From Woeseia sp. (lineage in GTDB: Bacteria > Pseudomonadota > Gammaproteobacteria > Steroidobacterales > Woeseiaceae), in contig JAJFKW010000001.1 in NCBI GenBank assembly GCA_021773015.1, positions 806,001 to 870,000 on the forward strand: a stretch of 64,000 bases of DNA, read 5' to 3'. Both the position numbers and the translations under genes were made by a program. Of this stretch, positions 30,048 through 50,212 are shown in pieces; position 1 is the first letter of the stretch, and every line of letters begins with the position of its first letter. The notes beneath the pieces are model-generated. The model ran no database searches. It worked only from the letters and a program-made list of their open reading frames with translations, and had not been told where the DNA came from.

Positions 30048-30303
30048 GCACCCGCCAGAGAACGCCCCAAACAAGCCCAATCATGCTTAGCCGATTTTTT
30101 TGAAATCGCCAAAATCGCTAAAGGCGCATTTTGACATGATACTGAAAGAATACAAGGTAAGTGCCTGTATTTTTTAGAGTCCGTGACCATTTTTATGCCC
30201 ACGCCAAGGTCGGGAAACGACATAATTGCGCGAATTCGTCAACCACAACGAAAACTTCGCGTTATTGCTCCTGAGAACCACGTCAATCGACAAGGAGACA
30301 CCA

Positions 30304-33355: not shown

Positions 33356-33751
33356 CTAGCGCGTCTCGCGAATTCGAATCATCACCTCAACGCTCTCTTG
33401 TTCAGTGCCTTTTGGTAGCGTTGGCAGACCGTGGACAGATACCTGATCTGCAGATATATCTTGTAATTCGCCGGTATCGACATGGTAGAAATGATGGTGT
33501 GGATGCGTCGAGGAATCGTAGATAATTCGGCTGGGATGTACGCTTATTTCTTTAACCAGCCCTTTTTCCGCAAACATATGCAAAGTGTTATAAACAGTAG
33601 CCTTGGAGACGCTGCCTCGTAAACGAACGCGTATCTGATCTGCCGAAAGGTGTTGTGGTTTGGCAAATAGTATTCTGGCAATTTTCAGGCGCTGCGGAGT
33701 CGCCGTAACGCCGTGCTTTACCAGTTTTGCCTGCAATTCAGCGCGTCTCAT
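33356..33751 (-). CDS. Fur-family transcriptional regulator lacking cysteines
   Basis: A 131-residue Fur superfamily repressor. Winged helix about residues 1-80 (VTATPQRLKIARILF, LSADQIRVRLRGSVSKATVYNTLHMFAEKGLVKEI), then the dimerisation domain with the histidine cluster HPHHHFYHVDTGEL. There is no cysteine anywhere, so the CxxC structural zinc sites of Fur, Zur and PerR are absent; this resembles Irr-like or cysteine-free members. I start at ATG 33751; TTG at 33769 is less likely. It is divergent from the pseudopilin cluster. The regulated metal or signal cannot be deduced. Confidence 0.86.
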   Translation of the reverse strand: MRRAELQAKLVKHGVTATPQRLKIARILFAKPQHLSADQIRVRLRGSVSKATVYNTLHMFAEKGLVKEISVHPSRIIYDSSTHPHHHFYHVDTGELQDISADQVSVHGLPTLPKGTEQESVEVMIRIRETR

Positions 33752-33783
33752 TTGCGTGCGCCCTCTCAATCAAGTTGCGCTGG

Positions 33784-33942: not shown

Positions 33943-34482
33943 ATGGCGATGAGAATGCCTGCTCTAGGCTTTAGTTTGTTCGAGTTGCTCATGACCATGG
34001 CGCTTGCTGCCATCGTATTTGGCCTTGGCGTTCCATCCTTCGCCGAGTTACTGGCGGATAACAGGTTACGAGTAGAGGCCGACGCACTATTTCACGCTGT
34101 GCATCGGGCACGCAAAGAATCCGTCGTAAGGCGGCGCCCAATCACCATTTGCGCAAGTCTTGATGGCAACACGTGTTCTGGGTCTTTTGATTGGACAGAT
34201 GGCTGGATCACCTTTGTAAACAAAGGGTTAAGAGATCCACTGCGGCGCGATCCGGACGAAGAACTGATCTCTCGGCATCAAGTGGGAGCCACTAGCCGTG
34301 TCACCGCTAACAGACGCGGCTTTACGTTTCGCTCTACGGAACTTCGAGCCACCAACGGTACTCTAGTGATATGCGATCAGAATGGGCGCTCAGCGAACCG
34401 CGCTATTGTAATCAGCTATACCGGACGGCCACGTGTTACCAGGGTCAATCGACGCGGACAACCCTATGACTGCGCGGATTAA
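33943..34482 (+). CDS. GspH/FimT-type pseudopilin (first copy)
   Basis: Minor pseudopilin of the type IV pilus, 179 residues. The prepilin peptidase site is ALG|FSLFELLMTMALAAIVFG with glutamate at +5, followed by the hydrophobic spine, then the GspH/FimT C-terminal beta domain (ITICASLDGNTCSGSFDWTDGWI and a pair of late cysteines). A strong AAGGAGG precedes ATG 33943. It opens the minor pilin cluster; FimT and FimU are the names used in Pseudomonas, and I cannot decide between them. Confidence 0.9.
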   Translation: MAMRMPALGFSLFELLMTMALAAIVFGLGVPSFAELLADNRLRVEADALFHAVHRARKESVVRRRPITICASLDGNTCSGSFDWTDGWITFVNKGLRDPLRRDPDEELISRHQVGATSRVTANRRGFTFRSTELRATNGTLVICDQNGRSANRAIVISYTGRPRVTRVNRRGQPYDCAD

Positions 34483-34581
34483 GTTAAATAGCCGATGTCG
34501 ATTCTGACCGCTCATCGGCTGGCGGTGGCCGTTTGTCGGATAGTTGAAACGACTCGTATTTGCCCGCGTATATTTCGGCTC

Positions 34582-35169
34582 ATGAAAACGTATAACGAAA
34601 CCGGCTTTACCCTATATGAGCTGCTGATTACCATGCTGGTCCTCGGCGTCGTACTGGCCGTTGGCATTCCCAATATGAACGCGTTTACGGCTAACAACCG
34701 AATAACTGCGTCGGCGAATGATCTGCACGCGTCCTTTTTGTTGGGTCGCTCAGAGGCTGCGCGGTCGAAGGCCAACATTACTATCTGTGCAAGCGCTAAC
34801 TCGCTGGATGCGCCCAACGCGGATTGCGGCGGCGAATTCGAAGACGGCTGGATTGTCTTTGAGGACACCGATGGCGATGTTATCCGGGATGCTGGTGAAC
34901 CATTGTTACGTTCTTATCCCGAGACGCCGCAGGGAATCGATATCATCTCGCAGGGCAACGACTACTTTTCATTTGCTCCGACCGGTCTGGGTCGCGGTAA
35001 TGTCGGTGTCGGTCCGGCGTTACAGGCTGCGATATTGTGCGACCACCGCGGCAACGTGCCGGCGAGCGGTGGCTTTTCTGCCGCCCGCGCGCTCATTGTA
35101 TTACCAATTGGTCGTGCGACAGTGCTGCGGGATATTGCAATCATAGACGGCCGCGGCGGGTGTCCATAA
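34582..35169 (+). CDS. GspH/FimT-type pseudopilin (second copy)
   Basis: A second minor pseudopilin of the same family, 195 residues from ATG 34582 (MKTYNETG|FTLYELLITM). The open frame back to 34495 would place 29 polar residues before the short leader, so it is rejected. C-terminal features match the first copy: ITICASANSLDAPNADCGGEFEDGWIVFEDTDGD. The two copies are clearly diverged, so they are probably functionally distinct (FimU/FimT-like) and not a recent duplication. Confidence 0.9.
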   Translation: MKTYNETGFTLYELLITMLVLGVVLAVGIPNMNAFTANNRITASANDLHASFLLGRSEAARSKANITICASANSLDAPNADCGGEFEDGWIVFEDTDGDVIRDAGEPLLRSYPETPQGIDIISQGNDYFSFAPTGLGRGNVGVGPALQAAILCDHRGNVPASGGFSAARALIVLPIGRATVLRDIAIIDGRGGCP

Positions 35170-35236: not shown

Positions 35237-35710
35237 ATGACAGATATGACAAACAATAATCTCAAAACGGTAAAGCGAGAAGGCGGTTTTACGTTGATCG
35301 AAGTATTGATTTCGTTGATCATCATGTCCGTCGGGATGCTTGGAATTGCCGGCTTGTATGTTTTGAGTATGCAAGCAGGTCGAACCTCCCAATTCCAGCA
35401 TCACGCGGTGACGCTTGCCGGCGACGTCGCTGATCGAATTCGAGCTAACCCACGTGCGGCTGCAGCTTACGCAGGCGCCGGCGCAGATAACAATTGTGTT
35501 GATGGCGGCATAAATTGCACGCCGGCAGAGATGGCTGCAAACGATATTTTTTTGTGGGACGACCAAGCGGCCGATTCATTGCCTACCGGAACCGTCGCTA
35601 TCGTATTTAATAATGGGGTTGCGCCACCAACTTATCAAATTACCGTTGGCTGGGAAGAGCCGGGCCAACAGTTGACATACGTCATTACCATCCCAGTATT
35701 TGGAATTTAG
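35237..35710 (+). CDS. pilV: Type IV pilus minor pilin PilV
   Basis: A 157-residue minor pilin with leader ending GG|FTLIEVLISLIIMSVGMLG, the PilV hallmark of SVGMLGIAGL in the N-terminal helix and DRIRANPRAA after it. Minor pilins PilV, PilW, PilX with PilY1 form the priming tip complex of type IVa pili. The stop (TAG, 35708) is one base before the pilW start. Confidence 0.92.
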   Translation: MTDMTNNNLKTVKREGGFTLIEVLISLIIMSVGMLGIAGLYVLSMQAGRTSQFQHHAVTLAGDVADRIRANPRAAAAYAGAGADNNCVDGGINCTPAEMAANDIFLWDDQAADSLPTGTVAIVFNNGVAPPTYQITVGWEEPGQQLTYVITIPVFGI

Positions 35711-35711
35711 T

Positions 35712-36701
35712 ATGAAAGTTAACGCTTACAAAAATTCGCATCGTGAATCGGGCGTCACATTGGTAGAACTGATGGTCGCGTTGGCAATAGGGTCGTTCCT
35801 GATGATCGGATCGATTCAGGTTTACAACCAGAGTCGCCAAGCATATGTAATCAACGACTCCATTGCGCGTGTGCAAGAAACCGCACAATTCGCGATGGAT
35901 ACCGTTGAGGCTGACTTGCGCATGGCCAGTAACTGGGGTCGTCACAGCCGTGGCACCGCAGTTGAGGGGCGTGCAATCACTGGCAACCCGGATCCATTGG
36001 GTATCGGTGTACCAACAGAATGTGGTGCGGACTGGGCGCTTTCCGTCTCGCGCCCGCTTGAAGGTACAAATAACGGTTACGGCCTTGCATGCGGCGCCAC
36101 CGGCGGTATTCAGCCAAATTCCGATGTATTCACCACTCGACGCGCGACCGTTGCCGTCACTGTACCAACCGCTGGCCGCTTGCAAGTACACACATCGCGA
36201 ATGTTGGGCCAACTCTTCGATAACGGTAATGTTCCGAACCTATTTCTGCCTTTCGATCCATTGGTATCAGAGACACACGACCTTATCGTAAATTCGTATT
36301 ACGTTGCTGCCGATTCTGATTTGATTCCCGGCGTACCGACGCTGCGTAGAAAGACTTTGGTTGTGGATGGTGGCGGTCCGGCGATTGAAGATCAGGAAAT
36401 TGCGCCGGGCGTAGAAAACATACAATTGCAGTTCGGCGTCGACGTGAATGACGACAACACAATTGATCGCTATGTGAATCCGGGAGATCCGATTCTAGAT
36501 TCAACCAACGTGGCATTTATTCCCGGCGCCAACGTCATCACCGCAAGAATTTGGTTACTAATTCGCTCGGTGACAATCGAAACGGGCTTGAATGATTTGC
36601 GCGACTACGAACCAGGCGACGTCGATCTTGGTGTCATGAACGACCAATTTCGCCGGCTACTTGTTTCGAAAACTATTTTACTACGCAATGCGCGATCATA
36701 A
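35712..36701 (+). CDS. pilW: Type IV pilus minor pilin PilW
   Basis: A 329-residue PilW-type minor pilin; ATG 35712 immediately follows pilV. The processing site is ESG|VTLVELMVALAIGSFLM. The C-terminal part has the long PilW domain (NIQLQFGVDVNDDNTIDRYV; IWLLIRSV). The ORF opens with a TTG at 35700 that would overlap pilV and add four residues. Confidence 0.92.
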   Translation: MKVNAYKNSHRESGVTLVELMVALAIGSFLMIGSIQVYNQSRQAYVINDSIARVQETAQFAMDTVEADLRMASNWGRHSRGTAVEGRAITGNPDPLGIGVPTECGADWALSVSRPLEGTNNGYGLACGATGGIQPNSDVFTTRRATVAVTVPTAGRLQVHTSRMLGQLFDNGNVPNLFLPFDPLVSETHDLIVNSYYVAADSDLIPGVPTLRRKTLVVDGGGPAIEDQEIAPGVENIQLQFGVDVNDDNTIDRYVNPGDPILDSTNVAFIPGANVITARIWLLIRSVTIETGLNDLRDYEPGDVDLGVMNDQFRRLLVSKTILLRNARS

Positions 36702-36725
36702 GCATAAAGAGAAAAGGCATTTGTG

Positions 36726-37205
36726 ATGAAGACTATTTCGTATAAAAACAATCAAAGTGGTGCCGCACTTGTTGTCGGCCTCGTACTCTTGGTCGTCATA
36801 ACCGTCCTCGCCGTATCCAGCATCAATACAGCGACGACCGAACTTGCGATAGCCCGAAACGACATGAACTATGAATTTGCGTTTCAGGCGGCCGAGACTG
36901 GTTTGGAAGCAGCAATTTCGCGGGGACAATACAGCACCGTCGGCGACATCAATATGAACCAGGCCGTTACGCTAAATGAGGATGTCAGCTCGGTGATCGC
37001 CTACCAGGAATGGACCGCGGTACCGGATCGCGCATTCAGCCTCGGCGTTGGCAGCGGCATTTCCGCTTATCATTTTCAAGCGACTGCGACAGCAGAATCC
37101 AAGCGAGCGGGCACAGCCGGTTCCGCGACGGATCGCGACGCGAGCGCAGTACATACACAAGCTTTCTATGTGGTCGGCCCTGAGCCGCAGACATTAGTCA
37201 ATTGA
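36726..37205 (+). CDS. pilX: Type IV pilus assembly protein PilX
   Basis: A 159-residue PilX-type minor pilin. The N-terminus NQSGAALVVGLVLLVVITVLAVSS lacks the glutamate at +5 that other pilins have, which is normal for PilX, and AFQAAETGLEAA is the standard PilX motif. ATG 36726 is preceded by AAAGG; a GTG one codon earlier is possible. Confidence 0.9.
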   Translation: MKTISYKNNQSGAALVVGLVLLVVITVLAVSSINTATTELAIARNDMNYEFAFQAAETGLEAAISRGQYSTVGDINMNQAVTLNEDVSSVIAYQEWTAVPDRAFSLGVGSGISAYHFQATATAESKRAGTAGSATDRDASAVHTQAFYVVGPEPQTLVN

Positions 37206-37243: not shown

Positions 37244-37582
37244 ATGCACATTCGAAAAATACTTATCGCAACTTTGCTGTTGATCAGTCTGCCGGTAGCG
37301 GCTGAATTTCGTACGGTGAAACTCGCATACGAAGTTCCGCTTAACGAATTTAATGTTCCCGTTACGAGAAACGGCATTATCAGCTTCCGCCAGTGCCCGG
37401 GATGCGCCACTGTCGAAGGGCGCCTGACACCGGATACGCGCTTCCTACTCAATGGTAATGCCGTGGAACTCAAAGAGTTTCGCAAGCATGTATTCACTGT
37501 ACGTAATCGCGCCGCAGAGACTATTGTCGTTACGCAGCATTTAGAAACAGAAACAATTACGTCCATTTCCATAAATTTATAA
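37244..37582 (+). CDS. Small secreted two-cysteine protein, copy A (PilY1-associated)
   Basis: A 112-residue protein with a signal peptide (MHIRKILIATLLLISLPVAA) and a mature domain of about 92 residues. It has one CPGC motif, followed by RLTPDTRFLLNGNAVELKEF and a strand-rich end (TETITSISINL). It is homologous to the protein at 41096, sharing G-x3-F-x2-C, the hydrophobic strand pattern, an F-R-K/R-x-x-F motif and a T-x-x-S-x-x-(V/I)-x-(F/L) end. Each copy stands directly upstream of a PilY1 gene, so it is probably a PilY1 chaperone, partner or tip factor. I recognise no named family. Confidence 0.72.
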   Translation: MHIRKILIATLLLISLPVAAEFRTVKLAYEVPLNEFNVPVTRNGIISFRQCPGCATVEGRLTPDTRFLLNGNAVELKEFRKHVFTVRNRAAETIVVTQHLETETITSISINL

Positions 37583-37618
37583 TCGACGTAGTCAAGAATA
37601 GGACTTGAGGAAAAGATC

Positions 37619-40600
37619 ATGAAGATCCGATCACAAAAAATTGCATGGACCGCGGTAGCAGGAATCCTTGCGCTGCTTGCTGGTGTACCGGTTTGGGCAG
37701 ACGATACTGAACTATTGCTTGTCAGCCCTGCGCTTACCGCGAAACCGAAGCCCAATGTGATGTTCATATTGGATACGTCCGGAAGTATGGGTACCGAGGA
37801 AGAAACCACGGAGCCCTATGATTCCACACAGGACTACAGCGGCGACTGCGATAGAGACAGTCTCTATTGGACTAATGTCGATGTACTTCCGGTATGTGAC
37901 GGAAACGAAACGCAGATAATTTTAAAATCTGCATTTCAATGTAACTTTGCGCAACGTCAAATTGATGGTATCGGTAGCTATACCAATACAATGGTGCAAT
38001 GGCGTACGACGCAGATCGCTTTGGGCGGTGGCATTGTACAAAATGTTTACTGGTGGCAAGACCTCATTCCCGGCGACGAAACAAGCTTTGTCGAGTGTCA
38101 AGCGGATAGAGCGTTGCACGGAGATGGTACGACCGGTGAGGTATATGCCACGGCCTATGGCTCGATCAACACGATCGGCGATCCTTGGGTAATCGATCCA
38201 AACTCTGAGCTGTCATGGGGCAGCGCGCCACGAAATATCGAATACACTGTGTTCGACGGAAATTATCTCAATTGGAAGGCTTCGCCGAACACGGTCGATC
38301 TTTCTCGTATGGAGATAGTGCGAGAAGTGACAAAGACCGTATTGAATTCTATTAACAACGTGAATGTTGGTATTATGCGATTCAATGACAGTAATGGTGG
38401 GCCGGTTATCCAAGCGGTTGTCGACCTCGACACAAATCGCAGTGACATTATAGATAAGATTGACTCGCTTGTGGACGGCGGTGCTACGCCGCTCTCCGAA
38501 GCCCTTTATGAATCCGCTTTGTATTGGAACGGTCTAGAAGCCGAATTTGGCGAAAGCGTCAATGAGCACGTTACAGATCCGGCAGCCTTAGCATCGGATA
38601 ACCCGGAGGTTTACAAATCGCCGACGCTTGATGCATGCGCAAAGAACTTCAACGTCCTGCTAACGGATGGTGTCCCGGTCAATGATGAGGAAGCACACGC
38701 GTTAGTACCGACATTACCGGACTTCAGCACGCTGATGGGCGGTGCGACCGCCTGTTCAGGTTCAGCGCAAGGTGATTGCCTCGATGACATCGGTGAGTAC
38801 CTTAGTCTAAAGGACACCGACCCTAATAACCCGGGCGTACAGAGTGTGGTTACACATACGATTGGCTTCGCGATCGATCTACCGATTCTTGAAAATACTG
38901 CTGACGACTCTGGCGGTAATTACTTTCTTGCAGACGACGTCGAAAGTCTAACCTTGGCATTACTGCAGATCGTTGCCGACATCACCGAACGGTCGCTGTC
39001 GTTTTCAGCGCCCGCAGTATCCGTGAATACGTTTAACCGAACGCAGAACCTAAATGATCTGTATTTAACGATGTTCGGTGCTAAACCAAGCGTACACTGG
39101 CCTGGCAACCTAAAGAAATATAAAATCACGAATCGGGTAATTACAGACGCCAATGACTTGTCGGCCGTAGACCCTAATACTGGCTTCTTCTTTAATTCTG
39201 CACAAAGTTTTTGGACAACGACTGGCCCGGACGGAAACGACGTACTGCGCGGTGGCGCTGCCAGCCTCTTTCCCGATCCTACAGTACGTAGCCTGTTTAC
39301 AAACAACGGCTCAGATAATGTTTTATCCGATGGAACGAATGCCATCACGCCATCCAATGCGAGCGCGTTCCAACTTTCGGACTTCGGTCTTAGTGGCGCA
39401 ACGGGCGAGCCTACAATGGACGAGATGATTCGTTGGATGCGTGGTGAGGATGTTCGTGACGAAGATCAAGACCCGGGGACGACCGTTAGAAATTCCATGG
39501 GCGACCCGCTTCATTCACAACCTGCCGCGATCGTCTACGGCGGAACACAGACCGACCCGGACGTTATTATTTACACGGCGACCAACGATGGTTACCTGCA
39601 TGCTGTCGACGGACGAACCGGCACTGAGATTTGGTCGTTTGTTCCGAAGGAATTGCTGGCAAATATGACCCGGCTGTTCTTCGACCCGAGCGCCAATTTT
39701 AAGAACTATGGACTCGACGGCAACATCGTTCCGGTCGTATTTGACGAGAACAACAACGGTATCGTTGACGGAGCGAACGACTTCGTGCGCATTATTGTTG
39801 GTATGCGCCGCGGCGGTAGCAGTTACTATGCGCTTGACGTTACCAATCGCGACGATCCGGAATTGCTATGGGCGGTGAGTCCCGCTGAAATGGGGCAAAG
39901 CTGGTCGACACCAGTGATCGCTCGAATCGACGCACCCGGAATCAATGATAAGAAAGCTGCGGTAATTTTTGGCGCAGGTTACGATAATTCACATGACACC
40001 TTTACGCACCCGGTCGTTAACGACGCGAATGGTGCTGCGATCATCATGCTCGACCTTGAGAGCGGTGCGGAATTGTGGCGTGCCTCGAGGAGCGCGAGCG
40101 GTACGAATGATCGAAATCTCCCAACGATGACCCGATCTATACCGGGTCAAATACGCGTCATCGACATCAGCGGCGACGGTTTGGCCGATAGAATGTATGC
40201 GTCAGACATGGGCGGTCAGATTCTCCGATTCGACATTTTTAATGGTCAAACTGGAGCAGACTTTGTGACGGGTGGTGTGATAGCACAGCTAGGAGCCGAG
40301 GGTCTTGGCTCCCCTACTTTGCCGGATACCCGACGATTCTATACATCGCCTGACATCTCTATATTCACTAGCGATAGACTTGAGCGCCGCTTCCTATCGA
40401 TTAGTATCGGTTCTGGTTATCGCGCGCACCCTCTGGCGAATAACAACGCCGACCGTTTTTATTCTGTAAGAGACAAAAACGTCTTCAATCAGCTATCGCA
40501 GGACGATTACAACAACCTCACCGTGGTAACCGATGCGAGCCTCGTGGAAGTCGGTGGCCAGTCACAGGTTGAACTGGATATTGCCGATACCGGCTGGAAA

Positions 40601-41005
40601 TTTACCCTTCCGAATACACAGAAAGTATTGTCCGATTCGATCACGTTTAACGATGAAATATTCTTCGTTGCATTTTCGCCTGAAAACAATACTACGAATA
40701 CGTGCTCGGTTGGTGCCGGAACTAACTTCCTATATCGAGTGAGCGTTTTCAACGGCGACCCGATCGTCAACAATCTCGACGACCTTGCAGATGATGACGC
40801 AGACGATGCGAGACGCCAGACACTTGCTCAGGGCGGTATTGCACCTACGCCTACGGTTCTATTCCCTAGTCCAGACGACCCCGATAACTGCCATGGCGAC
40901 GAATGCAAGCCGCCGCCACTGATGTGCGTTGGTGTCGAGTGTCCGCCGATGGACCTTGATATTCCGCCGGTACGTACCCTCTGGACACAAGACGGAATCA
41001 TGTAA
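37619..41005 (+). CDS. pilY1: PilY1-type pilus tip adhesin, copy A
   Basis: A 1128-residue secreted protein with a signal peptide (to about WADD at 27). The N-terminal half has a von Willebrand A-like domain with the MIDAS motif DTSGSM (about residue 52); the C-terminal half is the PilC/PilY1 beta-propeller (YTATNDGYLHAVDGRTGTEIW) with a calcium loop D-E-N-N-N-G-I-V-D in the region VVFDENNNG. The Cys-rich C-terminus ends PVRTLWTQDG. PilY1 proteins cap type IV pili, sense surfaces and antagonise PilT retraction. A good GAGG site precedes the start, 36 bases after the small secreted gene. Confidence 0.93.
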   Translation: MKIRSQKIAWTAVAGILALLAGVPVWADDTELLLVSPALTAKPKPNVMFILDTSGSMGTEEETTEPYDSTQDYSGDCDRDSLYWTNVDVLPVCDGNETQIILKSAFQCNFAQRQIDGIGSYTNTMVQWRTTQIALGGGIVQNVYWWQDLIPGDETSFVECQADRALHGDGTTGEVYATAYGSINTIGDPWVIDPNSELSWGSAPRNIEYTVFDGNYLNWKASPNTVDLSRMEIVREVTKTVLNSINNVNVGIMRFNDSNGGPVIQAVVDLDTNRSDIIDKIDSLVDGGATPLSEALYESALYWNGLEAEFGESVNEHVTDPAALASDNPEVYKSPTLDACAKNFNVLLTDGVPVNDEEAHALVPTLPDFSTLMGGATACSGSAQGDCLDDIGEYLSLKDTDPNNPGVQSVVTHTIGFAIDLPILENTADDSGGNYFLADDVESLTLALLQIVADITERSLSFSAPAVSVNTFNRTQNLNDLYLTMFGAKPSVHWPGNLKKYKITNRVITDANDLSAVDPNTGFFFNSAQSFWTTTGPDGNDVLRGGAASLFPDPTVRSLFTNNGSDNVLSDGTNAITPSNASAFQLSDFGLSGATGEPTMDEMIRWMRGEDVRDEDQDPGTTVRNSMGDPLHSQPAAIVYGGTQTDPDVIIYTATNDGYLHAVDGRTGTEIWSFVPKELLANMTRLFFDPSANFKNYGLDGNIVPVVFDENNNGIVDGANDFVRIIVGMRRGGSSYYALDVTNRDDPELLWAVSPAEMGQSWSTPVIARIDAPGINDKKAAVIFGAGYDNSHDTFTHPVVNDANGAAIIMLDLESGAELWRASRSASGTNDRNLPTMTRSIPGQIRVIDISGDGLADRMYASDMGGQILRFDIFNGQTGADFVTGGVIAQLGAEGLGSPTLPDTRRFYTSPDISIFTSDRLERRFLSISIGSGYRAHPLANNNADRFYSVRDKNVFNQLSQDDYNNLTVVTDASLVEVGGQSQVELDIADTGWKFTLPNTQKVLSDSITFNDEIFFVAFSPENNTTNTCSVGAGTNFLYRVSVFNGDPIVNNLDDLADDDADDARRQTLAQGGIAPTPTVLFPSPDDPDNCHGDECKPPPLMCVGVECPPMDLDIPPVRTLWTQDGIM

Positions 41006-41095
41006 ACCCAGCTGCTACGCCGTTACGATGGCCTACTAGCGATAGAATTGCGCCGCCAATTTATACTGGATGCGGCAAGAAAAAGGAATGATTAG

Positions 41096-41455
41096 ATGGT
41101 TAAAAGTATTCGTAATTGCGTAGTTGTTATCGTTATCACGTTCGGTTTGAGCTTACCGGCGATGGCGCAAATAACGACCTTAATCGAGGCAGTTGAAGCA
41201 TCGACTTCGGTTTTGAGTTTGCCCACAACGCCTAATGGTCGGCTCTTGTTTAAACCTTGTTCGGAACGATGCGATGTGCAATCAATATCGGTTCGGCTTA
41301 CGACAAACACTCAATTCGTATTTCAGGGAAAAAAGATGAGTTTTGTCGACTTCAGGAGGGATTTTTTCAACCTGCGTCGCAGCACGGAAGGCTACGCTCT
41401 GGTTAAATATGAAACTGAAAAAAACACCGTTACGAGTGTAGAAGTATCATTTTAG
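41096..41455 (+). CDS. Small secreted two-cysteine protein, copy B (PilY1-associated)
   Basis: A 119-residue exported protein (signal MVKSIRNCVVVIVITFGLSL...AMA) homologous to the product at 37244. The two-cysteine motif here is CSERC (C-x3-C against C-x2-C in copy A), followed by VRLTTNTQFVFQGKKMSF and RRDFFNLR. Identity between copies is low, so the duplication is old or the gene evolves quickly. It lies 65 bases before the second PilY1 gene, repeating the arrangement of the first cassette. Confidence 0.7.
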   Translation: MVKSIRNCVVVIVITFGLSLPAMAQITTLIEAVEASTSVLSLPTTPNGRLLFKPCSERCDVQSISVRLTTNTQFVFQGKKMSFVDFRRDFFNLRRSTEGYALVKYETEKNTVTSVEVSF

Positions 41456-41520
41456 AACACTAATGAAGGTGTGGCTGATTGAGCGATTAAGTCACGGACT
41501 GACAAATGAGGTAAGGACGA

Positions 41521-44500
41521 ATGACGAAGTCCAGGATACACGCCGCTTGGGCCGGTGTAGGACTGACGCTCGCGCTACTGACAGGAACTCCTGCATATGC
41601 AGATGACGTAGAGCTATTGCTCTCGAATCCTGCATCAAGTAATGCGGCTAAGCCAAACATACTGTTCATATTGGACAGCTCGGGTAGTATGACTTCCGTT
41701 GAAACGAGCCAAGAGCCGTTCGATGCGGCACTATCATACAGTGGACCTTGCAGCAGGGATAAACTGTATTGGACCACCAACAGTGGTGTGCCCTCCTGCA
41801 ATAGTGGTAATGAGCAACGCATTCTAAAAACGGCATTTGTTTGCCAGCAAGGCCTCATACAGGCCGCCGCCGCTGGCTCATACACCGATACGATGTCGCA
41901 GTACCGCAGGAATAGGGGCAAATGGAAATGGCGTACTATCAAGAGCGGCAACGAAACAAGTGTTGTCGAATGTAAAGAAGATTCCGGCAACCATGGCGAT
42001 GGAACCGCCGGCAAGGTGTACGCCAAGATTGGAACGAACACTGCCAAGTTCACCGTTGAACCGAGCCAGGAAGTCGCCTGGGGCAGCTCTCCAACGCATC
42101 GTATTTACACGACGTATGACGGCAACTATCTGAACTGGTTTTACAACCCACCAGGCACGTCGCTTTCGCGAACCGACATCGTTAAAGAAGTCACCAAGAA
42201 CGTACTAGGCTCCGTGAACAACGTAAACGTTGGGTTCATGCGCTTCCACCATAACCAAGGCGGCCCAGTAACTCGCGCAGTGAAAGATCTAGATTCCTCG
42301 CGAACAGAGGCGAACGCGGTTGTGGATGCATTGCCGGCCGCAGGCTGGACGCCGCTATCCGAGACGATGTACGAATCGGCACTGTATTGGCGCGGCATGA
42401 ACCGCAAGTACGGGGCACTTAGCTCGACCGATCCAGACGCCTTGGTGGATGGAAATAACGCCCAATATGAGAATCCGGCCGATTTTGCATGCTCAAAGAA
42501 CTTCACAGTTCTGCTGACCGACGGAGAGCCGACAGAGGATAGAGATGCCTATAGCCTCGTACCGATGCTGCCCAATTTTGTTGAAACAATGGGTCGCGGT
42601 AGTTGTACCGGCGGGGATGTCCATGGCGCCTGTTTGGACGATATCTCTGAGTATCTATCAAAAGAAGATATCAATCCGACCTTACCGGGTTTGCAAACGG
42701 TTACGACCTACACGATTGGTTTCAAGGTTGATCTGCCACTGCTAAAGAACACCGCGGAGCTTTCGGGTGGCGAATACTATCTGGCCGAGGATGTGCAATC
42801 CCTGACTACCGCTTTAACCGATATAGTTACCAATATTTTCGATCGGGATATTTCGTTCGCAGCGCCCGCTGTTGCGGTCAACGCGTTTAACCGCACACAA
42901 CACCTGAACGATTTGTATGTTTCCGTATTTCGCGCCAAAGATAATCATCATTGGCCTGGAAATCTGAAGAAGTACCGGATAAAAGACGGCATTGTCACAG
43001 ACTCACTCGGCGCTCCAGCAGTCGATCCAGCGACCGGTTTCTTTGCCGAAAGTGCCAAAAGCTACTGGACAGAGGGTTCGAACCCAGATGGGCCGAATGT
43101 CCATGCAGGCGGCGCGCGAAATAAACTCCCTGATCCGGTAACCAGGCGGTTGTTCACGAACAATGTCAGTAACAATCTGTCTGACGACGGCAATAAAGTA
43201 ACACCAGGTAACGCCGCTCGATTTTTACCGGCCGACTTCGGTCTAACCGGCGCTGCAGGCGAGCCTGACTTAGAAACGATCATCGCTTGGGCCCGCGGCG
43301 TGGACGTGAAAGATGAGGACAACGATCCAGACACGATGATCAGACGCGTGATGGGTGACACCTTGCACTCGCAGCCCGCGTCCGTCGTTTACGGTGCCGA
43401 TCCGAACGGGGACCTTGATATCGTCGTATATAACGCGACCAACGATGGCTATCTACATGCGATTGACGGCAAAACCGGAATCGAACTTTGGTCTTTCATT
43501 CCACATGAATTGTTAGAAAATCTAGTTGATCTGTATTACGACAACAATATCAACTTTAAGCACTACGGCATTGATGGAGATATCGTTCCGGTCGTCGCTG
43601 ATCGAAATCACAACGGCACAATCGAAACGGGTATTGACTCTGTATATCTGTTGTTCGGAATGCGCCGCGGTGGAAATAAATACTACGCGATGGATGTAAC
43701 TAACAAAAACGCGCCAACACTCAAGTGGATATCCTCCAATGCGAATTTTGGGCAAACTTGGTCTGCTCCGATCGTTGCAAAAGTAAAAGTAAACGGTGCT
43801 GGTGCAACCAGTCCGGACGACGCGGTCGTTATCGTCGGCGCGGGATATGACACCTCGCATGACCAACCAACATTGCCCGTGTCGGACGATGCCGAAGGTG
43901 CCGGAATTCTCATGCTCGACCTTGAAACCGGCCTCGAGCTGTGGCGTGCTGGCACCGATTCTGGGGCTGATCTAACACTCGACACGATGACCCGTTCGAT
44001 TCCTGCGCAGATTAAGGTCCTTGACCTCAGCGGCGACGGGCTCGCTGATCGCATGTACGCCGCCGACCTCGGCGGTCAAATATGGCGCTTCGACATATCG
44101 AATGACAGCAATGCCGCAAACCTGGTTGCAGGTGGTGTTATTGCACGTCTCGGCGCGGAAGGTGTGTCGGGTGCGGGAATTGCGCAGACACGTCGATTCT
44201 ACACCACACCTGACGTTTCGATGTTCCTCGACCACGAACATGACAGACGCTATCTATCTGTCAGCATAGGCAGTGGCTATCGGGCACACCCGCTAGACGA
44301 CCGAAATGACGACCGATTCTACTCGATTCGTGATACGGACGTTTTCAATCAGCTAAGTCAGATTGATTACAACGGGTATAGCGTAATTGAAGATGATGAT
44401 CTTAAAGAAGTCCAAGGCAAGCTCGGCGTAACACTGCAGCCGGGCGATAAAGGTTGGCGATTTACCTTACCGGCTGGCGAAAAAATACTCGCTGAATCAA

Positions 44501-44871
44501 AAACGTTTGACGACTCAGTGTTCTTTGTTTCTTTCCAACCGCAGACTTCTACAACGGACCCTTGCCAAGCTGGGCTAAGCATCAACAGGCTCTATCGGGT
44601 GAGTGTTGTCAACGGCGATCCAGTGGTAGATACTTCTCTTCTGGATGAAAATGATCCCGACGAAATCGACAATGCTCGCGTCACCGAACTCAATCAGGGC
44701 GGCATCGCGCCTAGACCGACATTCTTGTTTCCTAGCCCGGACGATCCGGAAAATTGCCACGGCGATGCATGTACACCACCACCGATTGGCTGCGTCGGCG
44801 TCGAGTGCTTTGACCCAGGGTATCCAAACAACCCTGTGAGGACGCTCTGGACGCAGGATGGTACAAACTAA
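41521..44871 (+). CDS. pilY1: PilY1-type pilus tip adhesin, copy B
   Basis: A 1116-residue paralogue of the preceding PilY1. Signal peptide to about AYADD, MIDAS motif DSSGSM, central domain, then the beta-propeller (YNATNDGYLHAIDGKTGIELWSF) with calcium-loop variant D-R-N-H-N-G-T-I-E. C-terminus NCHGDACTPPPIGC and PVRTLWTQDG matches copy A. Similarity extends along the whole length with clear divergence, so both copies are probably functional. The stop is directly followed by pilE. Confidence 0.93.
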   Translation: MTKSRIHAAWAGVGLTLALLTGTPAYADDVELLLSNPASSNAAKPNILFILDSSGSMTSVETSQEPFDAALSYSGPCSRDKLYWTTNSGVPSCNSGNEQRILKTAFVCQQGLIQAAAAGSYTDTMSQYRRNRGKWKWRTIKSGNETSVVECKEDSGNHGDGTAGKVYAKIGTNTAKFTVEPSQEVAWGSSPTHRIYTTYDGNYLNWFYNPPGTSLSRTDIVKEVTKNVLGSVNNVNVGFMRFHHNQGGPVTRAVKDLDSSRTEANAVVDALPAAGWTPLSETMYESALYWRGMNRKYGALSSTDPDALVDGNNAQYENPADFACSKNFTVLLTDGEPTEDRDAYSLVPMLPNFVETMGRGSCTGGDVHGACLDDISEYLSKEDINPTLPGLQTVTTYTIGFKVDLPLLKNTAELSGGEYYLAEDVQSLTTALTDIVTNIFDRDISFAAPAVAVNAFNRTQHLNDLYVSVFRAKDNHHWPGNLKKYRIKDGIVTDSLGAPAVDPATGFFAESAKSYWTEGSNPDGPNVHAGGARNKLPDPVTRRLFTNNVSNNLSDDGNKVTPGNAARFLPADFGLTGAAGEPDLETIIAWARGVDVKDEDNDPDTMIRRVMGDTLHSQPASVVYGADPNGDLDIVVYNATNDGYLHAIDGKTGIELWSFIPHELLENLVDLYYDNNINFKHYGIDGDIVPVVADRNHNGTIETGIDSVYLLFGMRRGGNKYYAMDVTNKNAPTLKWISSNANFGQTWSAPIVAKVKVNGAGATSPDDAVVIVGAGYDTSHDQPTLPVSDDAEGAGILMLDLETGLELWRAGTDSGADLTLDTMTRSIPAQIKVLDLSGDGLADRMYAADLGGQIWRFDISNDSNAANLVAGGVIARLGAEGVSGAGIAQTRRFYTTPDVSMFLDHEHDRRYLSVSIGSGYRAHPLDDRNDDRFYSIRDTDVFNQLSQIDYNGYSVIEDDDLKEVQGKLGVTLQPGDKGWRFTLPAGEKILAESKTFDDSVFFVSFQPQTSTTDPCQAGLSINRLYRVSVVNGDPVVDTSLLDENDPDEIDNARVTELNQGGIAPRPTFLFPSPDDPENCHGDACTPPPIGCVGVECFDPGYPNNPVRTLWTQDGTN

Positions 44872-44904: not shown

Positions 44905-45321
44905 ATGCGCAATTCAATGCGTGGTGTATCACTTTTGGAGTTAATGATAGTCGTCGTCATTATCGGAGTTATGGCGTCGATTGCCTACCCGAGTTATCGG
45001 GACTACGCAGCGCGTGCCAAGCGAAATGAGGCGCGAAACGGTCTGTTACAGATAGCCAACCTCCAAGAACGCTTTTACTTGCAGAACAATACATACACTA
45101 CCGATATGACCAATCTTGGGTTTGCGCTCGCGAGCGATAACCATACGGATACAGGCTCATACAATATTGATGTGCCGCAAGCAGATGCAAATGGATTTAC
45201 AGCCATCGGTACCTATCTGAACGGCGATCTAGAGGCGACGCGCTGTCTAACATTCCAAATTGATGGAACCGGCACCAGAACATCCGCTCCTGACGCCGAT
45301 TGTTGGGTGAAAACGCGCTAA
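44905..45321 (+). CDS. pilE: Type IV pilin PilE-type minor pilin
   Basis: A 138-residue pilin; leader ends MRG|VSLLELMIVVVIIGVMASIAYPSY with E at +5. Motifs ERFYLQNNTYTTDM and late cysteines (C-LTFQIDGTGTR...DCW) match PilE minor pilins. I choose ATG 44905 because a GCGGAGAA site lies before it; the frame also opens at ATG 44872 right at the PilY1 stop, with no site. The major pilin PilA is not in the window. Confidence 0.88.
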   Translation: MRNSMRGVSLLELMIVVVIIGVMASIAYPSYRDYAARAKRNEARNGLLQIANLQERFYLQNNTYTTDMTNLGFALASDNHTDTGSYNIDVPQADANGFTAIGTYLNGDLEATRCLTFQIDGTGTRTSAPDADCWVKTR

Positions 45322-45351: not shown

Positions 45352-45373
45352 ACGGGTCGCATATGCGGCCCGT
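45352..45373. terminator. Hairpin between convergent pilE and lspA
   Basis: Palindrome acgggtcgca / tgcggcccgt (one wobble) with almost no loop, followed by TCTTATT on the plus strand. A plausible but weak terminator for pilE; lspA ends two bases after it. Confidence 0.5.
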
Positions 45374-45375
45374 TC

Positions 45376-45987
45376 TTATTCCGAACCGTCCTTTATTTGA
45401 GCTTGGTCGCGTCCATCAATATCTGCATCAACTTCGGCAGTAGATTGTGTATCGCCGTTTGTTGCTTCGCCGAGCTTACTCAAAAAAAATGCATCGATAA
45501 TTAGCAACCCCGCACCTACGGAAATCGCGCTGTCTGCAACGTTAAATGCTGGAAACGGATAGCTGCCTATATAAACGAAAATAAAGTCGATCACGTGCCC
45601 AAGTAATATCCGATCAATGACATTACCGAGCGCTCCACCCAGCACCAGTGCAAGCCCGATACTCAAGACCAGCGAACGCTCTTTTCGTAACCGCCACAAC
45701 CAAATTACGATATATACACTTACGGCAAGCGCCAACACCGTAAGCGCCCAACGCTGCCAACCGGAAGCATCAGCGAGAAAACTCCATGCTGCGCCCCGAT
45801 TTTGACGATGCGTGATGTTAAACCAGGAGTTAATCGGGATGACCTGATGCAGCTCAACCCACTGCAATATCGCCCGCTTCGATATTTGATCGAGCACGAC
45901 GATTAGTGACGCCAGCACCATCCACAAAGTAAACGTCCGGTTGCCTTGCTGAGAATTGTTGTCGGTGGTCAATCTACTCTCTCCCAA
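45376..45987 (-). CDS. lspA: Lipoprotein signal peptidase II
   Basis: Aspartyl membrane peptidase that cleaves the lipoprotein signal peptide before the lipidated cysteine. The 203-residue protein has four helices and the active-site blocks VVLDQISKR, GNVIDRILLGHVIDFI and FNVADSAISVGA, with catalytic aspartates in the last two. It has a hydrophilic N-terminal extension of ~20 residues and an acidic C-terminal tail of ~35, longer than E. coli LspA (164). The gene lies 14 bases after ribF; ileS, which usually separates the two, is absent. Confidence 0.94.
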   Translation of the reverse strand: MGESRLTTDNNSQQGNRTFTLWMVLASLIVVLDQISKRAILQWVELHQVIPINSWFNITHRQNRGAAWSFLADASGWQRWALTVLALAVSVYIVIWLWRLRKERSLVLSIGLALVLGGALGNVIDRILLGHVIDFIFVYIGSYPFPAFNVADSAISVGAGLLIIDAFFLSKLGEATNGDTQSTAEVDADIDGRDQAQIKDGSE

Positions 45988-46001
45988 TCATCGAAATAAA
46001 A

Positions 46002-46952
46002 TCAGTTCGCAAGTATATCCCGCGCACTCTGCGCATCCGTATGTAATTGCTGCACTAGCGCTTCCACATTCTCGAATTTTTTTTCATTCCGCAATTTTCG
46101 CACGAATTCCACGTGAATTCGCTGGCCATACAAATCGCCGTCAAAGTCGAATATATGAGCCTCCAGTAAAGGATTCACACCATTAAACGTTGGTCTTACG
46201 CCAACATTTACAACTGCATCCATTGGATATTGGCCGATGCCGGTAACACGAGCGGCAAATGTCCCTAACACCGCACTTCGCTTACGATTGAGTTTGACGT
46301 TTGCTGTCGGAAAGCCCAGGGTTCGACCCAACTTCCTGCCCTCTACAACCTTTCCAGATAACCGATACGGCTTACCCAGTAGCTTTTCGGCAACATCGAG
46401 CTGACCCTCTGCGAGCGCCTGTCGAATCGCCGTACTGCTAACTCTTACACCGTCTATGTTGACGCTTTGTAATTGACTTACCGTCACAGCCAGCGCTTTG
46501 CCAGCTCTCATAAGATCATCAATGCCGCCGCTCCGATCAGACCCGAATCGAAAATCATCTCCCAATACGAGTGTGTTGGCATTCAAGCCATGAATTAGGA
46601 TGCGTCGAATGAACGCAGATACTTCTATATCACGCATCGATTTATCGAAGCGCGGACAAAACAGTACGTCGATACCTGCTTCGTCGAGCGCCGCGTGCTT
46701 TTCTCTAAAACTCATGAGCCTAGATGGAGGTCTGTCTGCCGAAAAATACTCTTTTGGCGTCGGCTCAAAACTCATAACAACAGACGGTATGCTTCTCTGA
46801 GCAGAGTAGCTCAGCACTTCCTGCAATAGTTTTTGATGACCCCGATGTACGCCATCATACGAACCTATAGTGACTACGCTACCGTGCCGAAGGTAGTCGA
46901 ATGGCAAACTTTCTAGGGAGCGCGAAACTATCAAAGCGGCAGTCTCACACAA
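46002..46952 (-). CDS. ribF: Bifunctional riboflavin kinase/FAD synthetase
   Basis: Converts riboflavin to FMN and FAD. FAD synthetase domain: GSYDGVHRGHQKLL, FEPTPKEYFS, VLGDDFRFGSDRSGG. Riboflavin kinase domain: RKLGRTLGFPTANVKL and an MDAVVNVGVRPTFNG strand. The 316-residue frame starts with TTG at 46952; an alternative TTG at 46934 is also possible. Downstream of murJ by 54 bases. Confidence 0.94.
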   Translation of the reverse strand: MCETAALIVSRSLESLPFDYLRHGSVVTIGSYDGVHRGHQKLLQEVLSYSAQRSIPSVVMSFEPTPKEYFSADRPPSRLMSFREKHAALDEAGIDVLFCPRFDKSMRDIEVSAFIRRILIHGLNANTLVLGDDFRFGSDRSGGIDDLMRAGKALAVTVSQLQSVNIDGVRVSSTAIRQALAEGQLDVAEKLLGKPYRLSGKVVEGRKLGRTLGFPTANVKLNRKRSAVLGTFAARVTGIGQYPMDAVVNVGVRPTFNGVNPLLEAHIFDFDGDLYGQRIHVEFVRKLRNEKKFENVEALVQQLHTDAQSARDILAN

Positions 46953-47006
46953 TTCAACGTAGCACAGACTGCGGCGGCATGGCTTTTGAATAGTGAAGAT
47001 AAATAG

Positions 47007-48614
47007 TCATGTGCGGTTCAACGCAAGCTTTGACGGACGCACACCGAGCATCAGCAATACGATTACGTAGCTGACGACCGCTGTGGTAATGATGACGGCA
47101 AGCTTTATCGATCGCTCAATAGTTGTCGTTGCAAGCCACCAGTCCAATGGCTCCTGAAAATGATCAACCACGAAATACATTGCTAGACACGCAATTAGAA
47201 TTGCTGGGAGTAGCGCAACAAATGATGGCAAGCGTTGAATGATACTTTCGCGCCGTAAACCACGATACAAGAGCAACGCATTCACTAAAGAAGCGATGGA
47301 AATTGCCAACGCCAGCCCAGCGTGCGTAGCGCGATAACCTATCGCCGCTAGCCAATATGCCAGCGCTACGCTTAATAAAACATTCACCCCTAACGCAATC
47401 AAGCCAAATTTGACCGGCGTCTTAGTATCCTCCCTCGCAAAATACGCGGGCGCGAGTATTTTGACGAACGAAAATCCTATGAGTCCAAGCGAGAACGCTT
47501 GCAAACTAATTGCCGTCAATTCAACATCTTCGCTATCGAATTCACCACCATAAAACATGGTAGCAACAAGCGGTTCCGCCAGTATGATCAGTCCAACAGC
47601 CGCTGGAATTACAATCAAACACACGAGTTTCATTGACCAATCCACAGTCGCCGCAAAATGTTTTGCTGATTGATTGGCATGCTGTCTGGACAGATGCGGC
47701 AAGATGACGGTCGCGAGTGCAATACTGAAAAGACCCAGTGGAAACTCCATTAGGCGATCTGAAAAATATAGCAAGCTGATTTTGCCGCTCCCTAGCATGC
47801 TCGCGATTATGCCGCCGACTAGTACATTTATCTGTGCCACAGACGAGCCAAATATTGCCGGTAACATCAATCTGAATGCTCGACGAACACCTTCGTGTCC
47901 AAAGCAAATTTTTGGGCGTGGCACGAATCCGATTTTCGCCAGAAATGGAACTTGAAAAAGCAGCTGAATTAGCCCGGCGAAGAACACCGCGTACGCTAGT
48001 GCCATACCCGGTTCCGCGAGCATCGGTGCAAGCCAGATTGCGGCCGCAATCAACGTGAGATTGAGCAGCACTGGTGTGAACGCGGCCGCAGCAAAGTGGC
48101 CATAGGTATTCAGCACGCCACCGGCAAACGCGACCAAAGACACAAAAAGCAGATAGGGGAAGGTAAATCTGACCATCAACGTCGCCAGATCGAAACCGCC
48201 GTCGCTATTTACCAATCCCGGCGCCACAATAATGACAAGCAGTGGTGCCAGAATGACGCCCAACAATGTGATGCCAAACAGCACTAGTCCGAATGTTCCG
48301 GCCATCGCGTCAACAAATTCCCGTGCCTCGCGATCGCTATGTTGTTCGCGATACCGCGCAATGACTGGCACAAATCCTTGCGAAAACGCGCCTTCCGCGA
48401 AGAATCTCCGCAACATGTTCGGGATTCTATTGGCGACCACAAAGGCGTCCATTACCAACGATGCTCCGAAGAACCTGGCCAACACGATATCCCGGATTAG
48501 CCCCGATACTCGCGAGACCAGCGTCATTGCGCTGACCACGGATGTGGAGCGCAACAGCCCGGATTCGGCAGCCAGCTTTCCGTCGTTATTCGGTGATGAT
48601 TTTTCGGTGCCCAT
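47007..48614 (-). CDS. murJ: Lipid II flippase MurJ
   Basis: Flips the peptidoglycan precursor lipid II across the inner membrane. A 535-residue polytopic protein with about 14 helices. Family motifs: SRVSGLIRDIVLARFFGAS, DAFVVANRIPNMLRRFFAEGAFSQGFVP and, later, LLYFSDRLMEFPLGLFSIALATVILPHLS. It is divergent from rpsT and leads into ribF-lspA, the common gammaproteobacterial arrangement apart from ileS. Confidence 0.95.
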   Translation of the reverse strand: MGTEKSSPNNDGKLAAESGLLRSTSVVSAMTLVSRVSGLIRDIVLARFFGASLVMDAFVVANRIPNMLRRFFAEGAFSQGFVPVIARYREQHSDREAREFVDAMAGTFGLVLFGITLLGVILAPLLVIIVAPGLVNSDGGFDLATLMVRFTFPYLLFVSLVAFAGGVLNTYGHFAAAAFTPVLLNLTLIAAAIWLAPMLAEPGMALAYAVFFAGLIQLLFQVPFLAKIGFVPRPKICFGHEGVRRAFRLMLPAIFGSSVAQINVLVGGIIASMLGSGKISLLYFSDRLMEFPLGLFSIALATVILPHLSRQHANQSAKHFAATVDWSMKLVCLIVIPAAVGLIILAEPLVATMFYGGEFDSEDVELTAISLQAFSLGLIGFSFVKILAPAYFAREDTKTPVKFGLIALGVNVLLSVALAYWLAAIGYRATHAGLALAISIASLVNALLLYRGLRRESIIQRLPSFVALLPAILIACLAMYFVVDHFQEPLDWWLATTTIERSIKLAVIITTAVVSYVIVLLMLGVRPSKLALNRT

Positions 48615-48810
48615 ATCGAGTGCGATTCTAGCCTAGAAAGATATGAAAATCAGTGATTTACAGCAGCATGTGGCTGACTGCAGCTTGTTGATCGATACGC
48701 TCGAATTAGACCATTGACATTCGCTTGCTGCCCACGAATAATACGCGGCTCTCTGGCCACGAGACTATTTGTCTCGATCTCGTGACCGACCCAACAAACG
48801 GAAATTTACA

Positions 48811-49077
48811 GTGGCAAATATCAAGTCAGCCCGCAAGCGCGCGAAACAGGCGGAAAAAACGCGTCTGCACAAGATGGGGCTTCGCTCAAAATTACGTACC
48901 CATATCAAGAGCGTGATTAGCGCTATAGAGAAAGGTGACCGCGAAGCTGCGTCAAGTGCATACAAAGAAGCGGTTCCAGTGATCGACAGCATGATCAATA
49001 AGGGCATTGTCAATAAGAATAAGGCAGCGAGGCACAAAAGTCGGCTCAATAAGATGATCAAGGCAATAGCGGCCTAA
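48811..49077 (+). CDS. rpsT: 30S ribosomal protein S20
   Basis: Ribosomal protein S20, 88 residues (ANIKSARKRAKQAEK, KNKAARHKSRLNKMIKAI). Translation starts at GTG 48811; the open frame from 48769 would add a non-homologous arginine-rich stretch. E. coli rpsT also uses a weak non-AUG start (UUG), known to matter for its translational autoregulation, so the GTG here may serve the same purpose. It converges with obgE. Confidence 0.96.
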   Translation: MANIKSARKRAKQAEKTRLHKMGLRSKLRTHIKSVISAIEKGDREAASSAYKEAVPVIDSMINKGIVNKNKAARHKSRLNKMIKAIAA

Positions 49078-49128
49078 AGCCACAATCGTCAGGGTTGCAG
49101 ATTTCTCGGTTTGCAACCGCCACACCCG

Positions 49129-50212
<1,084 letters not shown>

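Follow-up and report, generated by a model that had tools for sequence, protein, structure and literature searches.

A small exported protein paired with PilY1 in tandem cassettes of a Woeseiaceae-type minor-pilin operon

The minor-pilin operon and its surroundings

The window analysed here is a stretch of 64,000 nucleotides from Woeseia sp., and all positions refer to it. Between 33943 and 45321 it carries a minor-pilin operon of a Woeseiaceae-type gammaproteobacterium, with the gene order fimU-fimU-pilV-pilW-pilX-[smA-pilY1A]-[smB-pilY1B]-pilE, in which a gene for a small exported protein (SM) stands before each of two pilY1 genes. The features are as follows:

33943-34482, + strand: FimU/GspH-type minor pilin 1 (PF12019 GspH, E 1.7e-13)
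34495-35169, + strand: FimU/GspH-type minor pilin 2 (PF12019 GspH, E 9.4e-13; N_methyl)
35237-35710, + strand: minor pilin PilV (TIGR02523, 72 bits, above the cut-off)
35700-36701, + strand: minor pilin PilW (PF16074 PilW, E 2.5e-17)
36723-37205, + strand: minor pilin PilX, a single PilX for two PilY1 proteins (PF14341, E 3.5e-14)
37244-37582, + strand: smA, small exported protein with a predicted OB fold, cassette A (112 aa, CPGC)
37619-41005, + strand: PilY1A, VWA domain with MIDAS plus propeller (1128 aa; PF05567, 44.4 bits; VWA_2)
41096-41455, + strand: smB, small exported protein with a predicted OB fold, cassette B (119 aa, CSERC)
41521-44871, + strand: PilY1B, VWA domain with MIDAS plus propeller (1116 aa; PF05567, 28.4 bits)
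44905-45321, + strand: PilE-like minor pilin (PF16732, E 3.9e-18; N_methyl)
45352-45373, + strand: terminator-like hairpin ending the operon (9-pair stem with 7 G-C pairs, T-rich tail)

Two GspH/FimU-type pilins, PilV, PilW and PilX lie 5' of the cassettes and a PilE-like pilin, the start of which (44905) was picked by eye, lies 3' of them; the locus is thus the minor-pilin operon that a sequence-only reading of this DNA had taken it for. The FimU/GspH-type doublet at its start (33943-35169) consists of two different genes and is retained in most relatives. Spacers within and between the cassettes measure 36-90 nt, the gap from cassette to cassette holds no terminator-like site, and the strongest such site is the one after pilE (45352-45373). 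Elsewhere in the genome (6 contigs totalling 4.8 Mb, completeness 98.9%) there is no further PF05567 match, and the only other PF14341 (PilX_N) match belongs to a T2SS pseudopilin operon, so that one PilX serves both PilY1 proteins.

The operon is preceded by two genes read from the other strand, which encode a PAS-GGDEF-EAL c-di-GMP protein (27384-30080, - strand) and a Fur/Irr-type regulator (33356-33769, - strand). The block lspA-ribF-murJ-rpsT-obgE (45376-50169) adjoins the operon; the minor-pilin operon of Pseudomonas aeruginosa lies beside a similar block, a resemblance which suggests that the operon described here is orthologous to the P. aeruginosa minor-pilin locus. The named genomes with related loci are mostly Woeseiaceae MAGs.

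The two PilY1 proteins

The PilY1 proteins of the two cassettes are 54% identical end to end, and the earlier description of a full-length PilY1 with an intact MIDAS behind each small gene was borne out: both score above the cut-off of 28.1 bits for PF05567, the C-terminal PilY1 beta-propeller (44.4 bits for PilY1A, 28.4 for PilY1B), and both have the complete MIDAS set (DxSGSM at residue 52, TPLSE and LTDG) as well as a calcium-type loop, DxSGDGLAD. A VWA_2 Pfam match was obtained for PilY1A. For PilY1B, the AF2 model (pLDDT 83) is that of a VWA-propeller protein, with the PilY1 C-terminal domain (3hx6) as its top PDB match (E 1.8e-18). Propeller, minor-pilin context and an N-terminal VWA-MIDAS, the last a trait of a subset of PilY1 proteins, place both proteins with PilY1/PilC, for which location at the pilus tip and a role in adhesion would be predicted. 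After the propeller comes a proline- and cysteine-rich tail, CHGDxCxPPPxxCVGVEC (40880-41005 and 44750-44871), the four cysteines of which are about 90% conserved among SM-linked PilY1 proteins.

The small protein and its predicted fold

The small genes had been described as encoding homologous exported proteins with CPGC and CSERC motifs; coordinates and motifs proved exact, and the homology is evident at 27% identity over 110 residues (E 3e-14). Searches of Pfam 2025 and NCBIfam r20 returned no fitting family, and the remark that the protein belongs to no named family stands for these two collections; what it overlooked is PilY2, an analogue in Pseudomonas. For 14 members Pfam gave ExbD matches (best E 0.0011), which were ascribed to the hydrophobic signal peptide, and a third SM-like match in this genome (contig 6, E 0.09, two stop codons) was set aside as chance.

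Across the 87 members collected, the signal peptide carries AxA in 76, Glu30 and Pro39 are invariant, and exactly two cysteines, spaced 2-4 residues apart, are found in 86, the remaining member being without both. In the AF2 model (pLDDT 89.7) seven short strands are accompanied by a single small helix. Foldseek gave no match to the model below E 0.001, and a profile search of PDB sequences gave a single chance match (E 1.2). On structural realignment the neighbours were mostly OB folds, including a phage SSB (Z 5.8) and CusF (Z 5.7), Z values that establish the general fold arrangement only. There is no thioredoxin match in Pfam and the order of elements in the model is unlike the thioredoxin fold; absence of thioredoxins from the list of structures is not proof in itself. 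We predict from the model that SM, with its signal peptide and two cysteines, forms an OB-fold barrel.

Linkage of the small gene to pilY1

With a profile made from the two sequences, SM was found in 30 of 60 relatives; with the 87-member profile, 128 of the 246 genomes from the order and 14 of the 274 from the class gave matches, of which one at class level (G394, two stop codons, no neighbouring genes) is a chance match. The genomes compared are mostly metagenome assemblies. The profile search for the small protein across pilY1 loci that had been proposed as a check bears the sequence-only reading out: among the 150 SM matches listed in the order, pilY1 lies directly downstream in all 148 that could be assessed (121 by paired match coordinates and 27 by inspection of the locus, the other two lying at contig ends), at a median spacing of 83 nt between the matches in the 121 paired cases. 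Conversely, the best 150 PilY1 matches in the order comprise 136 with SM, 6 whose upstream side is truncated by the end of the contig and 8 with no detectable SM, so that 136 of the 144 readable pilY1 genes of the SM-linked class have the small gene. Outside the order, a number of other families have distant relatives of SM in the position between pilX and pilY1 (L257-L260, L262, L263), and in one genome a stand-alone pilY1 with no minor pilins around it is followed by an overlapping SM-like gene (L291, 6820-10586).

The association is not universal. Several lineages are missing SM and retain both the operon and the same class of PilY1 (L274/L276/L277/L278; L275/L281; L279; L131), which argues that the role of SM is dispensable or can be replaced. 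No feature of PilY1 clearly follows the loss: the PilY1 alignment columns that track the presence of SM are eight scattered positions that form no block.

A different PilY1 class, about 36% identical, occurs in the same genomes without SM (L134-L137). Several relatives (L048, L055, L061, L063, L067) have, a few kb downstream of the SM-type cluster and in opposed orientation, an additional minor-pilin/PilY1 cluster whose PilY1 is of a different class and which again lacks SM. Three relatives (G016, G002, G023) carry a PilY1-PilY2-PilE cluster separate from the SM-PilY1 cluster (L088, L089, L138) and hence two helper types per genome, which go with different PilY1 classes, the PilY2-linked class being without SM. 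PilY1-like proteins of about 1040-1130 aa with no minor pilins or SM detected nearby were also found (L127-L130).

A single duplication of the cassette

The tandem arrangement recurs in many related genomes, a pattern far beyond chance, and this recurrence, together with the homology of both gene pairs, upholds the tandem duplicated cassette first read from the window alone. In a tree of 87 PilY1 rows, one clade of 23 rows is made up of all second-position copies (21 copies of B) and two single-copy loci, its sister clade of 49 rows comprises all first-position copies and 33 single-copy loci, and the join of the two has an SH-aLRT support of 100. An independent SM tree gave the same make-up of 23 rows (21 B, two single) at an SH-aLRT of 99, these support values being from quick tree searches. 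Given that both trees recover the same B clade, the gene phylogenies show that the whole cassette was duplicated once, before the radiation of the Woeseiaceae-type clade. Copy B was subsequently lost many times, since rows for first-position and single-copy loci are interspersed, with at least nine changes of label; copy A was lost twice. No exchange of partners between copies A and B is seen in the trees.

Correlated evolution of the small protein and PilY1

SM lies about equally close to the preceding gene and to the pilY1 that follows, so that plain linkage predicts an equal correlation with both. Over 36 first-cassette loci, the rank correlation of distances was 0.62 (95% range 0.48-0.74) between SM and PilY1 and 0.06 (-0.15 to 0.29) between SM and PilX. 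At tandem loci (n=14) the values for cognate pairs were 0.77 (smA with PilY1A) and 0.60 (smB with PilY1B), and those for crossed pairs 0.33 (smA with PilY1B) and -0.13 (smB with PilY1A), all with wide bootstrap ranges; smB starts only 90 nt past the end of PilY1A, yet it is this pair that has the negative value. Untrimmed and trimmed alignments agree.

Among the pilins, PilW and PilE show a mutual correlation of 0.49 but almost none with the PilY1 of the first cassette, and within the operon this cassette therefore seems to have moved or recombined as one block; PilY1B, for its part, correlates with PilW at 0.74 in the tandem loci. No one domain of PilY1 consistently co-evolves with SM (residues 801-1010 in the A clade, other parts in the B clade). 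What mirror-tree correlations of this kind reflect is a history in common; recombination of whole cassettes could produce it too, and it is from this history that we infer binding of SM to PilY1.

Proposed role of the small protein

Linkage, co-inheritance, the single duplication and the conserved cysteine pair, together with the predicted fold, point to the small gene and the following pilY1 acting, in both copies, as a functional cassette. Our preferred reading, to which we would give a probability of roughly 60%, is that SM is a periplasmic folding or loading factor dedicated to PilY1, and that the two cassette copies provide alternative tip adhesins with helpers of their own. SM would be exported by Sec and would fold into a small beta-barrel of OB type, with one disulfide or another two-cysteine site closing it; in the periplasm it would bind its cognate PilY1 and, most likely, help to fold, stabilize or hold it, in the manner of a chaperone or loading factor. 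PilX, at the tip of the priming complex, would then receive PilY1; the two proteins have been modelled as joined at the tip by beta-strand complementation (PMC13190605). Cassettes A and B may in this way supply alternative adhesins, each with its helper, to a common set of minor pilins. One PilX for two PilY1 proteins suggests alternative tips, and tips that are swapped or combined are plausible, should both proteins be expressed and assembled. A bolder version we regard as doubtful: that a whole class of gammaproteobacterial PilY1 proteins has SM as its defining second polypeptide, and that SM pairs with its cognate partner alone and selects the adhesin loaded onto the shared PilX, with tandem cassettes serving as a built-in tip switch that is gained, lost and exchanged as a unit in otherwise stable pilus operons.

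The chief rival to a folding or loading factor is a stable subunit of the tip, SM remaining on PilY1, for instance where PilX and PilY1 meet or on the propeller, and aiding the binding of ligand. SM is exported and soluble, OB folds can bind oligosaccharides, the gene order pilX-SM-pilY1 mirrors the modelled order of PilX and PilY1 at the tip (PMC13190605), and the results on linkage and co-evolution apply equally; the lineages that have lost SM and kept PilY1 nonetheless oppose an indispensable structural joint, and we think this arrangement possible but rather unlikely. It is less likely again that SM is a true homolog of PilY2 (PF14481) that has been relocated and has diverged. The two proteins are alike in being small, exported, adjacent to pilY1 and of OB type, the lspA-ribF-murJ-rpsT-obg neighbourhood is presumably that of the Pseudomonas pilY2 locus too, and the PilY2 structure 3tdq is among the structural neighbours of SM (Z 4.2 over 63 residues, 2.8 A); however, unrelated OB folds outscore it, smA and smB do not match PF14481 at E <= 1, the family is absent among the 25 listed for the 87 members, hhalign gives a probability of 29.5 over 12 columns, the PilY2 gene lies after pilY1 and the SM gene before it, and the three genomes with both types hold them in separate clusters with different PilY1 classes.

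With CusF so close to the top of the structural neighbours, and a conserved cysteine pair, SM might instead be a metal handler whose two-cysteine loop supplies metal to PilY1 or senses it. We consider this very improbable, given that unrelated OB folds score equally, that a cysteine spacing varying from 2 to 4 fits a disulfide, and that the other columns of the family hold no conserved Met, His or Trp. Least probable of all is a bystander held beside pilY1 by conservation of the operon alone: the operon is indeed conserved, and some lineages have lost SM, but SM trees follow PilY1 and not PilX, SM was duplicated along with pilY1 and retained with each copy, and the pair occurs outside any pilin operon. 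The sequence-only reading of SM as a dedicated PilY1 partner rather than a bystander accordingly draws good support from linkage and co-evolution, and needs amending in that the partner is not always required.

Folding, protection and placement of PilY1 at the tip are poorly understood, and the known accessory proteins, TfcP and PilY2, are few and lineage-specific. SM adds a widespread, unnamed family linked to PilY1, for which cognate pairing is a clear prediction, and tandem cassettes offer a natural experiment, with two adhesin-helper pairs on a single set of minor pilins. If the folding or loading role is correct, it would explain alternative tips on one pilus machine and make SM an annotation marker for its class of PilY1.

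Comparison with known systems

Accessory proteins of PilY1 and multiple PilY1 proteins per genome are both already known. In the open-access literature we found no earlier report of a widespread family, still without a name, that goes with a single PilY1 class, nor of an adhesin-helper pair duplicated inside one operon.

PilY2 of Pseudomonas (Fimbrial_PilY2, PF14481; PA4555, PDB 3tdq), which P. aeruginosa requires for piliation (PMC2680260, PMC10191384), is, like SM, a small exported non-pilin encoded next to pilY1 in a minor-pilin operon, and has an OB-type barrel such as is predicted for SM. Its gene lies between pilY1 and pilE, whereas that of SM lies directly before pilY1; no sequence relationship was detected with the PF14481 profile or hhalign, and the PilY2-like sequences collected here are without a conserved cysteine pair, unlike SM. 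Searches of the order and the class with the PF14481 model gave few matches, all weak or in other clusters. SM was therefore not placed in the PilY2 family, to which it has no sequence match and whose genes lie on the opposite side of pilY1.

TfcP of Myxococcus xanthus, from one of three clusters, stabilizes the matching PilY1 (PilY1.1) (PMC8833165). Like SM, it is an exported periplasmic protein encoded in a minor-pilin/pilY1 cluster, and it serves one particular PilY1, as SM would; TfcP has a cytochrome c domain, whereas SM has a predicted OB-type fold and none of its 87 members has the CxxCH haem motif. On the reading preferred above, SM would most likely have the role attributed to TfcP and, plausibly, to PilY2.

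Genomes commonly encode more than one PilY1/PilC, as in PilC1/PilC2 of Neisseria and Kingella and PilY1.1-1.3 of Myxococcus and Xylella (PMC13190605). In Myxococcus each PilY1 has a minor-pilin cluster of its own (PMC8833165), whereas here a single operon with one PilX encodes two complete PilY1 proteins in tandem, each accompanied by a small protein of its own.
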